Virus record (IMG/VR): IMGVR_UViG_3300030116_003395
Span: 1-33,498 of that record
Direction: 5' to 3' (one strand)
From: a virus
Length of the DNA stretch: 33,498 nucleotides
Positions 25,744 through 30,981 of this stretch are shown piece after piece. How positions within the stretch are numbered: position 1 is the first letter of the stretch; each line of letters opens with the position of its first letter. The position numbers and the translations under genes were made by a program. Below the pieces are notes generated by a model. That model saw nothing but the letters and a program-made list of their open reading frames with translations. It searched no databases and was not told where the DNA came from.

Positions 25744-26152
25744 TTCGTTAATCGAATATAGAGAATGCAGACTTGCTGAACAGCAAGTAAGTTTCGTATC
25801 ACAACATATACCCTTAATACAAGAGCATTTTCTAACTAAAGAAGACCAAATTAAAGCTTTAAGAATAATATATTGCGAAAGCAGAGGCAAAATTAATGCA
25901 GTTGGAAAAAACAAAGACGGCACTTATGACAAAGGTTTATGGCAATTTAATGATAATACTTGGGCGTGGCTAAAAGGTAAGTTAAAATTTACCGGCGACA
26001 GATTCGATCCTTTATTATCAACTAAAGTAGCACGTTGGTTAATTTATAATGACGGCTGGAAACATTGGAACAGTAGTAAAAAATGCTGGTATAATGAAAA
26101 TAAAAATAGGAGTTTTTATGGATATAAGTCTAGAACAAGTTTCAGTCAATGA
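25679..26152 (+). CDS. Lysozyme-like (transglycosylase fold) exported protein, 157 aa
   Basis: Probable peptidoglycan hydrolase. The core (about residues 55-130) has the lysozyme/SLT pattern: catalytic Glu in YCESRGKINAVG followed by KGLWQFNDNTWAW and FDPLLSTKVARWLI. An N-terminal hydrophobic segment after Lys residues (residues 4-22, ISNLLIVCVIPLTL) acts as signal peptide or anchor. GTG start at 25679. It sits with the DNA-modification genes, not with the holin, so it may be the endolysin or an entry enzyme. 3' end overlaps the ParB-like gene. Confidence 0.75.
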   Translation: MKQKLISNLLIVCVIPLTLTPNSLIEYRECRLAEQQVSFVSQHIPLIQEHFLTKEDQIKALRIIYCESRGKINAVGKNKDGTYDKGLWQFNDNTWAWLKGKLKFTGDRFDPLLSTKVARWLIYNDGWKHWNSSKKCWYNENKNRSFYGYKSRTSFSQ

Positions 26153-26873
26153 TTTAGTTGAATTTCCAGATAATCCAAGAGTTGGAAATGTAGCTGAAAT
26201 TAAAAAATCATTGGTAGAAAACTTACAATACAAACCTTTAATTGTTAATAGAAAAACAATGCACGTTTTAGTTGGTAATCATACGTTAAAAGCTATGAAA
26301 GAGCTAGGTTATGAAACTTGCAACGTAAATTTTATTGAAGTAGATCCTTTAGCTGAAAAGAAAATAGTTCTTGCAGACAATAAGTTATCAGATAATAGCG
26401 AATACAATGTTGAACAATTGACCAATTTACTTGATGAATTAATGACAGACGGCGAATTAATCGGTACAGGGTTTAACGCTGATGAAGTTGATGATCTATT
26501 ATCCACACTAGGCGATGCTCCAATAATTACTGACTTCGAACAATTTGAAGGTGGTTATGCCTTAGAAGATGATGAGATTGAAAAACTTAAAAACAATTAC
26601 ATAGCAACTGAAACTTCTAATAAAGAAGCAAGAGGTGGCGAAAGATTACGTGATGTAATGCTACATTACAAAGAATCTAAATACGAAACTTTTGTAGAAA
26701 TGGTATCTGAAATTTCAGAAAAACTAGGGCAAAAGAAAGCAGATTCAATATACGTTGCAGTTGAGTTTTTTCATAAACAACATTTTGAAGATGAAGATTT
26801 TGATGACATTGATACAGAGTTCGAAGAAATAAAAGATAATGCTTTCAAGCGTATATTCAAAAGAGATACTTAA
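26118..26873 (+). CDS. ParB-like nuclease-domain protein of the DNA modification cassette
   Basis: 251 aa. Residues about 8-90 have the ParB N-terminal fold signature: DLVEFPDNPRVGNVAEIKKS, KPLIVNRKTMHVLVGNHTLKA (GNHT in place of the classical GERR box) and IVLADNKLSDNSEY. The C-terminal half is acidic and helical. AGGAG plus ATG 26118 is preferred over ATG 26049. ParB-domain genes are repeatedly linked to phage base-modification operons (Iyer and colleagues' comparative work), where a DNA-binding, nickase or targeting role has been proposed. It overlaps the next gene by 35 bp. No ParA partner or parS cluster is seen, so plasmid-like partition is unlikely. Confidence 0.8.
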   Translation: MDISLEQVSVNDLVEFPDNPRVGNVAEIKKSLVENLQYKPLIVNRKTMHVLVGNHTLKAMKELGYETCNVNFIEVDPLAEKKIVLADNKLSDNSEYNVEQLTNLLDELMTDGELIGTGFNADEVDDLLSTLGDAPIITDFEQFEGGYALEDDEIEKLKNNYIATETSNKEARGGERLRDVMLHYKESKYETFVEMVSEISEKLGQKKADSIYVAVEFFHKQHFEDEDFDDIDTEFEEIKDNAFKRIFKRDT

Positions 26874-27744
26874 TAATTATTTAAAGTTTCACGAAGTCCA
26901 AGAGTATAGTAAGGACATAGATCCAATATACCCAGTGCTTAAATATATTATTGAAAAAGAAAATATTAAACTTGAAGAAAGTATTTGGTTAACTTTCTTA
27001 TATGTTGCTTATTACAATATTGGATCTGCTTTATTAGTATTTGAAAAATACCCAACACCAGAGATTCCACACGATTTACTTAAACTTCCGTGTGCAACTG
27101 AAAGAAGAAATCATAGACAACCAAGAAATTTAGAAAGGCATTTAACTAATTTAGTTGATATTTATTGGTGGTATGACGGCTATGAAAATTTTTTAACAAA
27201 TGATTTTTGTGAACACCCGAAAATGAATTGGGGTATTTTACAAGATAAATTAAATACAATATGGGGTAATGGGCGTTGGGCTTCGTATAAGACAGGCGAA
27301 GTTTTATGGAAAGTAAATGGTCTTAATTTACAAGCTACGGATATGGGACACGCTCACTCAAGCGGATCTCGTAAAGGTTTAGAGCTTTTAATTCGTAATT
27401 TACCAAAAGGCAATTCGGAAAAAGATATACAAGTATTGGATAAAATTAGCGATAATTTAGTCAGATATATGGAAAATCAGGGATTAAAAGTAAGTATTGA
27501 AACAGCGGAAACTAGCTTATGTGACTTTAATAGTATGACTAAAGGTAAATATTACTCTGGTATTGACATAGACCATATGCAAGAAGATCTATTAAACACA
27601 AAAAGTATTTACACAGATTTAGCTTTTGAAGGTAGAAAAAAAACTATACCAAATGAATATCTTGGAGAGCTAAACGGCTGGACTGGAGTAAGAAAAGAAA
27701 AGAAAAAAGAGTATGTTATTAAACAAGAAAGTATCACGAAGTGA
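26839..27744 (+). CDS. Amino-acid:DNA transferase (thymidine hypermodification)
   Basis: 301 aa. Proposed to displace the activated phosphate of 5-hydroxymethyluracil in DNA with an amino acid, the core step of thymidine hypermodification. Regions resembling the family (alpha-glutamyl/putrescinyl-thymine pyrophosphorylase / AADT, distantly related to helical DNA glycosylases): a helical N-terminus with AYYNIGSALLVFEKYPTPEI (58-77), RRNHRQPRNLERHL, GRWASYKTGEVLWK (145-158) and AETSLCDFNSMTKGKYYSGID (223-243). Next to the kinase and dioxygenase genes this call is well supported, but I rely on recalled family patterns rather than a search. Amino-acid specificity is inferred (glycine) from the FAD and GNAT partners. 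Confidence 0.78.
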   Translation: MLSSVYSKEILNNYLKFHEVQEYSKDIDPIYPVLKYIIEKENIKLEESIWLTFLYVAYYNIGSALLVFEKYPTPEIPHDLLKLPCATERRNHRQPRNLERHLTNLVDIYWWYDGYENFLTNDFCEHPKMNWGILQDKLNTIWGNGRWASYKTGEVLWKVNGLNLQATDMGHAHSSGSRKGLELLIRNLPKGNSEKDIQVLDKISDNLVRYMENQGLKVSIETAETSLCDFNSMTKGKYYSGIDIDHMQEDLLNTKSIYTDLAFEGRKKTIPNEYLGELNGWTGVRKEKKKEYVIKQESITK

Positions 27745-28201
27745 AATCCAAGCTTTAAAAATACATATTAAAGACTGGGAATACAAAGGTAGTAAAAGCA
27801 CAATGCATCATTTGAAAAGTGCTTTGTATGATTGGGATAGAGAAAAACAATGGAATAAGGATTCCGCCAAAGTATTTGGTCTTAATAAAAAATGTTATGC
27901 CTTTATTAGCTATACAAAAAGAGATCCTAGACACTGCACTTTAAGACACTTCTTTACACTAGAAACTGCTCGTGGCGAGGGTTTAGGAAGTTTAATGATA
28001 AGTATTATTTTTAAAGATATGCAAGAAAATAATGTAAAGTATTTTAGATTTTTCGCCAATAAACCAGCAATTAAATTTTATGAAAAACTAGGTTTTACTT
28101 GGCACGGATTAAGTAAGACTGGATTACCATTTTGTTATTGGGATATTGATAAACAACAGTCTGCTGAATTACCAAAAGCACAACAAAGGTATATTGTATG
28201 A
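27713..28201 (+). CDS. GNAT-family N-acetyltransferase of the cassette
   Basis: 162 aa. Acetyl-CoA binding motif RGEGLG (residues 87-92, within FTLETARGEGLGSLMIS) and the motif-B helix NKPAIKFYEKLGF (116-128) are clear. In known thymidine hypermodification pathways a GNAT enzyme acetylates the free amine left on the base. ATG 27713 overlaps the transferase gene by 32 bp, and its 3' end overlaps the FAD gene, so it is a dedicated operon member. The first 70 residues are non-canonical and probably form the DNA-facing part. Confidence 0.88.
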   Translation: MLLNKKVSRSEIQALKIHIKDWEYKGSKSTMHHLKSALYDWDREKQWNKDSAKVFGLNKKCYAFISYTKRDPRHCTLRHFFTLETARGEGLGSLMISIIFKDMQENNVKYFRFFANKPAIKFYEKLGFTWHGLSKTGLPFCYWDIDKQQSAELPKAQQRYIV

Positions 28202-28980
28202 AAATAGCAATACTTGGTAATGGTATTTGTGGATCTAGTGCAAAAAAAATTGCTTTAGAATATGGACACGAGCCAACAATTATTTCATCTAATTCTAATT
28301 CTGCTTCGAAATCTGCTTTAGCTTCTATACGCCCAAGCTGGTTTAACAAAGCAGAAAGAGTTAGCATAGATAGATCTTGGGCTTGGTATAAACAATGGAA
28401 CGCCACAATAACTAAAATAGCGACTGTTAGTAATTGGAAAGATCCTACAAAGACAAAAGAACAAGAAGATTGGTGGCTTGTAAAACCAATTAGCGTTCTT
28501 GAAGATCCAGATATAGTTGGGATTGTACCTTACTTGGATATGTTAAAAAATGATTACGATGCAATACTTAACGCCACCGGTGTTAGTTTAAGAAAAGATC
28601 TAAAACATTTTTACGGAGCAACCTTAGTATCTAAGAAAGCAAAAGCTAATTTTATGCCCTTTAGGATTCATCACATTAGACCATATCATAGTGTGCATAT
28701 TGTAGAAAGTGACGGATTAATTAGGATTGGCTCTAGTATTAGTAAAAACAAAGAAAAGTGCGTTGAAGAAATATACAAAATGAAAGAGTTGTGTGAGGAT
28801 CTTAAATTAGTTTCAAAGGTTTATGACTGGGAATTAAATATGGGTATAAGAACACAAACAGAAGATAAGAAACCTATTACCCCACAACTTGGAAATCCTT
28901 ATACAAGCATAGGCGGTTTACACAGAACAGGATATGCTCTTGCACCAGATCTTATTGCACAATGGATTAATAGCTTATGA
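28198..28980 (+). CDS. FAD-dependent enzyme (glycine/D-amino-acid oxidase fold) of the cassette
   Basis: 260 aa. The N-terminal Rossmann motif GNGICG (7-12) in MKIAILGNGICG binds FAD; the C-terminus has MGIRTQTEDKKPITPQLG and GGLHRTGYALAP, the usual FAD-pocket end of DAO-family enzymes. It is shorter than free-standing oxidases (about 370 aa), as expected for the phage flavin lyases that cut the attached amino acid on DNA to an aminomethyl group. The cap region (RPSWFNKAERVSIDRSWAW) replaces the normal substrate lid. Overlaps both neighbours by 4 bp. Confidence 0.82.
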   Translation: MKIAILGNGICGSSAKKIALEYGHEPTIISSNSNSASKSALASIRPSWFNKAERVSIDRSWAWYKQWNATITKIATVSNWKDPTKTKEQEDWWLVKPISVLEDPDIVGIVPYLDMLKNDYDAILNATGVSLRKDLKHFYGATLVSKKAKANFMPFRIHHIRPYHSVHIVESDGLIRIGSSISKNKEKCVEEIYKMKELCEDLKLVSKVYDWELNMGIRTQTEDKKPITPQLGNPYTSIGGLHRTGYALAPDLIAQWINSL

Positions 28981-29555
28981 TAAATACAATTTACTTTATT
29001 GGAGCACCGGCGACTGGAAAAACAACATTAATGAAAAATATACATCAAGAGTGGTTATTTATGGAAAATGTATCAAAGCCAATAGCATACAGAGTTTTCA
29101 AAGATCTTACGAATAAAGAGAACGAATACAATATTGTCTTAGGAAAGGACGCACCAGTTTATGGAGGAACAGATACTTTAAGCTTTACTGCAATTAATCA
29201 TTGTGAGGATTTATATAAAAAGTTTTCAAGAAAAAGAGTCAAGTATGTTTTAGCAGAGGGCGACAGATTAGCAAATTCAACTTTCTTTGATATGTGTTTA
29301 AATTATGGCGAATTGCACGTTATATATTTAGATCTTGATGAAGATTTAAGACTTAAAAGGAATGAAACAAGAGCCAGTATGAATAAGGTTTCAAAGCAAA
29401 ATATAACTTGGCAAAAAGGTAGATTATCAAAGCATAAAAATTTAGCCGAAAAATATAATGCTTATATCTTAAATTGTGGGTATATTGAAGATACTTTATA
29501 CATAGAGAAAAGTGTAGAGGATTTAACAATTGAAGTTAAAGAATTTTTGGTATAA
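28977..29555 (+). CDS. 5-hydroxymethyluracil-DNA kinase (HMUDK-type P-loop kinase)
   Basis: 192 aa. Walker A GAPATGKT (residues 9-16). Family-specific motifs are VLGKDAPVYGGTDTLSF (54-70; the G/F-GTD-x-LS box) and LAEGDRLANSTFF (92-104; EGDRL). C-terminal residues 135-155 (KQNITWQKGRLSKHKNL) match the Q.....R.sK..N basic strip of the family. It is expected to phosphorylate the hydroxyl of 5-hydroxymethyluracil in DNA with ATP, making a leaving group for the amino-acid transferase. ATGA coupling with the FAD gene. Confidence 0.88.
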   Translation: MINTIYFIGAPATGKTTLMKNIHQEWLFMENVSKPIAYRVFKDLTNKENEYNIVLGKDAPVYGGTDTLSFTAINHCEDLYKKFSRKRVKYVLAEGDRLANSTFFDMCLNYGELHVIYLDLDEDLRLKRNETRASMNKVSKQNITWQKGRLSKHKNLAEKYNAYILNCGYIEDTLYIEKSVEDLTIEVKEFLV

Positions 29556-29561: not shown

Positions 29562-30479
29562 ATGATAGAAATAAGACTGAGATCGAAGATAAGTGAGGAA
29601 GAACTTAAACAGAAAGTCGGAAAGATATTAACCGATGAAGATTATAATTTATTAATTCATAAAGACACAACAGTTCGAGCAATTAATGGTGAGATACTGG
29701 CGGTGTATCAAAGGAACGTTATTCCGGAAGACATAGTTGAAAATACTTACCCTGTTTTATCGAGTCTAAAGAAATATCAAACCAATAATAGAACACTCGC
29801 CAGTGGCTTACCACAATACAAAAGGCAGACCGGCGGGACTAGATCTAGCACTGTAAAACCAATAGCTTCTACAACAATTGGTGGATTCGATCCTAAAAAC
29901 AATACACCTTATTGCAGACTTACTGCTTGGAGTGGTAATGAAGTAGATCAATACCAAGAGCTTTTTCCTTTGTTTCAATTTATTGGTAAAGAAATGCAAA
30001 GAGTTGCACCTAAAAGATACAATGCACAAATGGAATTTGTTAATAAAACACATCCAGATTGGGTAATACCAAATACTCCGTTCACAACAATTACTGTTAA
30101 TAATTCTTATCCAACCGGCGTTCACACTGATAAGGGCGATCTTGATGAGGGTATTTCTACACTAGCAGTGATTAAGAAAGGCGATTATGAAGGAGGGTAT
30201 TTGACTTTACCAGAATACAGAATTGCTTTTAATGTAGGACATAGAGATTTATTAATTTTTAATGCTCACGAGTGGCACGGAAATACCAAACTCGAAATGA
30301 AAAGTCCAGATGCTGAAAGAATATCTGTTGTATGTTATTACAGAGAGAATATGGCTATGTGTGATTCTATGGAAGAAGAAGAACTAAAGAAAGCAGAAAT
30401 AGCAGAACGTAAACTTGTAAAAGATAATACTGGGGTTGTTAAAAAATTTATGGAAGAAAAATTTGAAACAACAAGTTGA
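29562..30479 (+). CDS. TET/JBP-like 2-oxoglutarate/Fe(II) dioxygenase (thymine hydroxylase)
   Basis: 305 aa. Catalytic residues are visible: Fe ligands His188 and Asp190 in GVHTDKGD and His239 in HEWHGNT; the 2-oxoglutarate Arg253 in ERISVVCYYREN. GGYLTLPEY (211-219) and GHRDLLIFNAHEW (226-238) complete the double-stranded beta helix in the arrangement of the TET/JBP family. The N-terminus NRTLASGLPQYKR (77-89) also recurs in phage members. With no cytosine-5 methyltransferase in the genome and a hydroxymethyluracil kinase beside it, the expected substrate is thymine in DNA (JBP-like), giving 5-hydroxymethyluracil. A short tail is Lys/Glu-rich. Confidence 0.85.
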   Translation: MIEIRLRSKISEEELKQKVGKILTDEDYNLLIHKDTTVRAINGEILAVYQRNVIPEDIVENTYPVLSSLKKYQTNNRTLASGLPQYKRQTGGTRSSTVKPIASTTIGGFDPKNNTPYCRLTAWSGNEVDQYQELFPLFQFIGKEMQRVAPKRYNAQMEFVNKTHPDWVIPNTPFTTITVNNSYPTGVHTDKGDLDEGISTLAVIKKGDYEGGYLTLPEYRIAFNVGHRDLLIFNAHEWHGNTKLEMKSPDAERISVVCYYRENMAMCDSMEEEELKKAEIAERKLVKDNTGVVKKFMEEKFETTS

Positions 30480-30981
30480 GTGGGAAGCCAACGAAACATA
30501 CGCAGAATATAAACAAAAAAAATATGCTGGTATGCAGGGTATGGGGCAACCTAATTCTAAAAAACGTATGGCTGGAAACTGTCCAAATTCGAATATAGTT
30601 AAAACAAAATGTAAATGTAGAACTTGTATTAATCGCCGTAATAGATCCAAAGGTAGAAGAAAACAAAATTTAGTAAAGAAAAAATTAAAAATACAAGACA
30701 ATAGATTCCACGGAGCAGATGCTCACGAAGAAAATTGGTTAAGCGGTTTAAGGTTTGAAGTCAAAGCAGGAAAACAAGTTGAGCCATTAAACAAATTATT
30801 TAATAAAGCAAAATTACAAAGCGATACAAACCACAAAGCAATAGGATCTTTAAGCAAACCATTTGTATATGTCGCTATGCCAGACGGCACTGAAAATGGA
30901 ATAATGGCTTTCCAATTAGATGATGCTGAAAACGTTTGTTATGAAATACTTAAAAATTTCGGATACATAGAGGAAGATTAA
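30463..30981 (+). CDS. PD-(D/E)XK-like nuclease with cysteine cluster (putative resolvase)
   Basis: About 172 aa from TTG 30463 (TTG 30436 would add nine residues; there is no ATG near). A Cys cluster C40...CKCRTC (50-55) may bind zinc. RSKGRRKQNLVKKKL, AHEENW and FEVKAGKQVEPLN (98-110, with the E-x-K pair E99/K101) resemble small phage nucleases of the PD-(D/E)XK/Holliday-junction-resolvase type. It overlaps the dioxygenase gene and ends exactly where the convergent minus-strand gene ends. Might resolve replication intermediates or digest unmodified DNA. Confidence 0.6.
   Translation: MKQQVEWEANETYAEYKQKKYAGMQGMGQPNSKKRMAGNCPNSNIVKTKCKCRTCINRRNRSKGRRKQNLVKKKLKIQDNRFHGADAHEENWLSGLRFEVKAGKQVEPLNKLFNKAKLQSDTNHKAIGSLSKPFVYVAMPDGTENGIMAFQLDDAENVCYEILKNFGYIEED

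Follow-up and report, generated by a model that had tools for sequence, protein, structure and literature searches.

Pseudomonas phage M6 makes 5-aminoethyl-deoxyuridine (dU) through a radical SAM isomerase and a PLP decarboxylase. Flavin lyases and acetyltransferases reportedly act in thymidine hypermodification too, as set out by Lee and colleagues in 2022. In Pseudomonas phage PaMx11 the product of gp46-gp51 is said, after the same group and Wen and colleagues in 2024, to be 5-(N-acetylaminomethyl)-dU (5-AcNmdU), with roles for the individual enzymes. Hypermodification initiated by TET/JBP enzymes was reportedly predicted by Iyer and colleagues in 2013. TET-bearing actinophage cassettes of the Tonitrus type have been termed thymidine hypermodification systems (PMC11955845), and marine pelagiphages carry a thymidylate synthase with a pyrophosphorylase relative (PMC9599517). 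The FAD domain of MnmC carries out flavin-dependent cleavage of carboxymethylaminomethyl uridine to aminomethyl uridine (PMC9626948).

The window analysed here is the whole 33,498-nt record IMGVR_UViG_3300030116_003395, a linear IMG/VR contig that is possibly incomplete. Six tightly packed genes on the plus strand form a cassette, whose product in the phage's own DNA is probably an N-acylated 5-aminomethyl-dU, most likely 5-(N-acetylaminomethyl)-dU. Observations on the cassette covered gene content and order, folds, intact cofactor motifs and selection. E-values of our own HMMs against the ORFs come from iterated profiles and were used for naming genes, not as proof of distant kinship. The first gene (26049..26873; phrog_723, E 1.1e-35) encodes a ParB-like protein that is present in nearly all related cassettes; its start is probably at 26115 or 26124, and the protein perhaps has a DNA targeting role. 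It is followed by an amino acid:DNA transferase (ADDT; 26839..27744; PF18724, E 7.9e-22), a GNAT of 162 aa (27713..28201; Acetyltransf_1, E 7.8e-11), an FAD-dependent DAO-fold enzyme of 260 aa (28198..28980), which matched no Pfam family at cut-off and was assigned from its modelled fold, a P-loop kinase (28977..29555; PF18751, E 8.9e-18), likewise found in nearly all related cassettes, and a TET/JBP 2OG-Fe(II) dioxygenase (29562..30479; PF12851, E 8.5e-28). Overlapping frames join ADDT to GNAT (27713 vs 27744), GNAT to FAD enzyme (28198 vs 28201) and FAD enzyme to kinase (28977 vs 28980). Compared with three relatives, purifying selection acts on each of the six genes (dN/dS 0.08-0.30; GNAT 0.15-0.19, FAD enzyme 0.09-0.14), and the synteny of GNAT and FAD enzyme is maintained in relatives as low as about 65-70% identity.

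The original prediction had named a DAO-fold flavin enzyme and a GNAT as the tailoring enzymes, and positions 27713-28980 contain exactly these two ORFs. It had also held that radical SAM and PLP decarboxylase enzymes are missing; a search of the whole record, possibly incomplete, agreed, with zero matches to PF04055 (radical SAM) and to PF00282 and PF02784 (PLP decarboxylases). Elsewhere in the window, a Dam-like adenine methyltransferase (510-1022; PF05869, E 8.9e-18) is a second DNA modification gene of the record. After the TET gene, positions 30436-30981 encode a conserved 181-aa protein with a Cys-rich stretch and an E-x-K stretch reminiscent of nucleases; it had no Pfam or significant PHROG match. 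At L010:143-6876, an FAD enzyme identical to that of the window and the same TET are followed by a 1457-aa ORF that is absent from the window, a difference that possibly marks a recombination junction immediately after the cassette. The best matches of the terminase and capsid of the record were below 35% identity. The nearest named phage relatives of the TET (Pelagibacter and Nonlabens phages) suggest that the phage is marine. Among the genome contigs searched, only three actinobacterial loci had a distant ADDT.

In the proposed pathway, the TET/JBP oxygenase would convert the thymine methyl group in DNA to give 5-hydroxymethyl-dU (5hmdU), the hydroxymethyl group of which would be phosphorylated by the P-loop kinase. 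The ADDT would then replace the phosphate with an amino acid, most probably glycine, joined through its amino group. The FAD enzyme would oxidise the C-N bond of the amino acid, and hydrolysis would leave 5-aminomethyl-dU, much as MnmC acts on cmnm5U in tRNA. The GNAT would cap the free amine, with acetyl-CoA as donor. We infer all of this chemistry, and the acetyl group and the glycine are its least certain parts. By analogy with known hypermodified phages, the modification would likely shield the DNA against host nucleases.

No source of 5hmdU had been named in the original prediction. The cassette contains a Tet_JBP enzyme, which retains the HxD and distal His iron ligands in a motif alignment, and the record is without a thymidylate synthase homologue (PF00303). 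Of the 50 related records, 48 had no thymidylate synthase; among these are the complete genomes of five isolates (Tonitrus, Phelemich, CaiB, Kozie and LilMcDreamy), in which the search gave no match. The remaining two, PaMx11 and L104, had no TET in the sequence stretch examined, and a TET was present in every other cassette whose neighbourhood was fully in view. The operon context and the missing thymidylate synthase point to the TET/JBP enzyme, acting on DNA, as the most likely source of 5hmdU. Two TET lineages were found among the cassettes, in a tree without the HTVC112P and P12024L TETs, which are the closest two to that of the window and were both placed by profile scores. In the ADDT tree, a quick tree with long branches that is indicative only, the TET lineage or thymidylate synthase source switches at least 4 times, as would be expected if the three sources all yielded one and the same intermediate.

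TETs related to that of the window also occur in phages with no ADDT seen nearby, and one of these adjoins a TET-associated glycosyltransferase; the base specificity of the TET is thus not proven. Melnitz shows that phage TETs can adjoin cytosine C5-methyltransferases (here of the HhaI type), and a midpoint-rooted tree groups the window TET lineage with Cr30- and DLP6-type TETs, as might be expected were the target 5-methylcytosine and the whole cassette a means of decorating cytosine. Such a role is less likely for the window TET because, in contrast to Melnitz, the record (possibly incomplete) contains no C5-cytosine methyltransferase (PF00145). Also against it, the ADDT and lyase match enzymes with deoxyuridine and thymidine substrates in their PDB titles, and at L104:4347-6891 a thymidylate synthase homologue replaces the TET beside an ADDT, a divergent DAO-like protein and a kinase. 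Decoration of cytosine was accordingly judged very improbable. With thymine as the preferred target, the enzyme partners with solved homologues would tie phage TET/JBP enzymes to thymine, not cytosine. A separate TET-ADDT cassette, at L103:2656-7777, is adjoined by a TET-associated glycosyltransferase (PF20691), an upstream kinase and two ParB-like genes.

The model of the ADDT had a pLDDT of 94.3. A fold search of the PDB with this model gave three significant matches only, all of them PaMx11 gp46 (E 2.5e-5, the next match being at 0.11); the gp46 structures 8z2m and 8z2n (PUGT) carry the PDB title 5-phosphomethyl-dU glycinyltransferase. In a profile search gp46 was matched at 6e-6 and 25qc, another solved ADDT, at 1e-15, and hhalign aligned the ADDT with gp46 at a probability of 96.2. 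Glycine is the best guess for the amino acid because the only significant fold matches are to the gp46 glycinyltransferase, and the modelled ADDT likely attaches it to phosphomethyl-dU. The P-loop kinase is proposed to be a 5hmdU DNA kinase making 5-phosphomethyl-dU; it belongs to PF18751, a Pfam family different from those of PaMx11 gp49 and gp50. HMUDK_hel had no match in the record, in a search run with no positive control that is therefore no evidence of absence.

The FAD enzyme was modelled from an alignment of 33 viral homologues (pLDDT 93.2). Comparison of this 260-aa protein with characterised lyases, a check suggested together with the original prediction, put PaMx11 gp47 first: 8z79 and 8z2o were the top PDB matches of the model (Foldseek E 2.3e-12), VIA alignment with gp47 gave Z 24.6 and an rmsd of 2.6 Å over 246 residues, and gp47 ranked first in a profile search (E 8.4e-9). 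The PDB describes both entries as the FAD-dependent N-alpha-glycinylthymidine lyase (gp47/NGTO) from Pseudomonas phage PaMx11. The hhalign probability against gp47 was 97.6 over 249 columns, nearly the whole length, at a sequence identity of just 14-17%. The sequence alone gave nothing significant against the PDB, significance being reached only via the model and the profile. Because glycine oxidases and D-amino acid oxidases come close behind at Z 21-23 (glycine oxidases 22.8 vs 24.6 for gp47), the modelled fold by itself does not single out gp47 among the DAO-fold matches.

The GxGxxG motif is intact, with G7, G9 and G12 invariant in 33/33 homologues. R218, equally invariant (33/33), was aligned with the Arg in 'GIR' of gp47 and, in a sub-threshold alignment, with the Arg in the 'GLR' motif of a glycine oxidase. 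In glycine oxidase the 'GLR' Arg holds the substrate carboxylate, and R218 may by analogy do the same in the window enzyme. The earlier concern that structural modelling might reveal an inactive or absent flavin site was not borne out; the site is intact, and it looks active because these three glycines and R218 are invariant. On the model, the FAD enzyme is proposed to be a lyase that would convert N-glycinylthymidine to 5-aminomethyl-dU and glyoxylate. Other N-linked alpha-amino acids would also yield aminomethyl-dU through such a lyase. Aminomethyl-dU is a well supported candidate intermediate because gp47 is the best match of the modelled FAD enzyme and gp46 provides the only significant matches of the transferase.

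The identity of the acyl group depends on the GNAT. Against PaMx11 gp48, hhalign gave a probability of 91.6 over 71 columns, covering the general GNAT core alone. True gp48 relatives were found as the GNATs of L038, L042-L044, L054, L102 and, in part, L041 (hhalign probability 100, E 1e-50). By sequence comparison the window GNAT is placed outside the gp48 subfamily. This type was seen only in the phage clade of the window, always between ADDT and FAD enzyme, and tblastn with it against 50,697 phage records gave no match. The window GNAT is proposed to be an N-acetyl (acyl) transferase acting on 5-aminomethyl-dU. Since two GNAT types occupy the same slot, the slot would serve amine capping, and N-acylation of aminomethyl-dU is likely. 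Acetyl as the group, based on GNAT chemistry and the operon slot and not on orthology, is less sure because the GNAT lies outside the gp48 subfamily. Acetyl-CoA is the common donor of GNATs, and this general knowledge argues against transfer of a propionyl, succinyl, aminoacyl or other non-acetyl group onto 5-aminomethyl-dU, as does the presence of true gp48 relatives in the slot in other TET cassettes. Such a group would fit a GNAT subfamily distinct from gp48 and confined to one clade, and a cap chemistry that varies, the same slot holding an amidoligase and a small phosphatase in relatives; it was considered unlikely. With acetyl as the preferred group, a single mass is predicted for the DNA of this uncultured marine phage group, that of 5-AcNmdU (M+H 300.119); the values calculated for the proposed intermediates are 258.108 for 5-aminomethyl-dU, 316.114 for N-glycyl-T and 259.093 for 5hmdU.

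In those relatives, an Amidoligase_2 protein and a low-molecular-weight phosphatase lie between ADDT and FAD enzyme, at the position of the window GNAT (e.g. L024:4753-5980). They were assigned in L022-L025, L031, L034, L035, L037 and L101; the assignment is a direct Pfam match for both proteins of L024 and for the amidoligase of L101, and is by homology in all remaining cases. Where ADDT and kinase were both in view (87 cassettes), a GNAT was present in 16, an amidoligase in 8 and neither of the two in the remainder. L083 was reckoned FAD-less in this count, its 'FAD' match being a spurious 65-aa frame; short FADx matches that fell within the ADDT genes of high-GC contigs were discounted as artefacts. 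All 24 cassettes with a cap (GNAT or amidoligase) have the FAD enzyme, compared with a cap in 0/7 FAD-less cassettes, numbers too few for significance. The ADDT tree, a quick tree with long branches, shows at least 12 changes of cap state. The GNAT slot is exchangeable: it is empty in some cassettes and elsewhere holds a gp48-type GNAT, a GNAT of the window type, or an amidoligase together with a small phosphatase.

About 55 of the 87 cassettes have an FAD enzyme and no recognised cap, so that aminomethyl-dU would be a normal end point. Uncapped 5-aminomethyl-dU would then also be the end product in the window phage if its GNAT targeted something else, e.g. a host or phage protein. The position of the GNAT between ADDT and FAD enzyme, with overlapping frames throughout the clade, and the gp48-type GNATs in the same slot elsewhere make this improbable, and a capped amine is preferred. 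Mycobacteriophage Phelemich is predicted to have uncapped aminomethyl-dU, and the exchangeable slot suggests further DNA base chemistries. A broader scheme is put forward tentatively, as somewhat short of an even chance: two TET/JBP lineages may hydroxylate thymine in DNA, replacing the nucleotide-level hydroxymethylase, and feed a common aminomethyl-dU pathway with an exchangeable cap, which would be added by a gp48-type GNAT, by a second GNAT type, or by an amidoligase and small phosphatase attaching a carboxylic or amino acid through an amide bond. At L007:2656-3759 (LilMcDreamy), an aspartyl/asparaginyl hydroxylase-like protein (PF05118) occupies the usual position of the FAD enzyme. In the actinophage cassettes L002:3644-4642, L004:3045-3926 and L005:3054-3926, a divergent protein with a GxGxxG N-terminus follows the kinase; that of L005 had no significant Pfam match, and the protein is perhaps a distant FAD lyase.

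Compared with known systems, the cassette resembles the M6 pathway in that an amino acid would be joined to hydroxymethyl-dU, and differs in that the radical SAM isomerase and PLP decarboxylase of M6 were not found in the window record. MnmC would share its type of cleavage with the proposed FAD lyase, a likeness of reaction, whereas its substrate is tRNA and a second, methyltransferase function is part of the same enzyme. Actinophage TET/JBP cassettes (Mycobacterium phage Phelemich, Gordonia phage CaiB and Rhodococcus phage Tonitrus) share the ParB-like protein, TET/JBP enzyme, ADDT and kinase, and Phelemich also has an FAD enzyme with 24% identity to that of the window over its full length; these cassettes differ in having no GNAT and in a TET of the other lineage, located between ParB and ADDT. 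PaMx11 is closest: a single operon there, too, encodes ADDT, FAD lyase, GNAT and P-loop kinase. Its order, ADDT-FAD-GNAT-kinase-(gp50)-TS, is close to that of the window with GNAT and FAD enzyme swapped. It differs in using a thymidylate-synthase-like hydroxymethylase where the window has TET/JBP, in its gp48-subfamily GNAT and in the Pfam family of its kinase. The analogy with PaMx11 drawn in the original prediction has held up, with gp46 and gp47 as best solved matches, close gene content and order, and an intact flavin site. The predicted route from glycine through aminomethyl to acetyl agrees with the gp46- and gp47-like enzymes and is not matched at its last step by a gp48-subfamily GNAT. 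As far as the literature searched shows, it is new that a marine phage clade combines a TET source, enzymes resembling gp46 and gp47, and a second type of GNAT, as is the amidoligase in the same slot.
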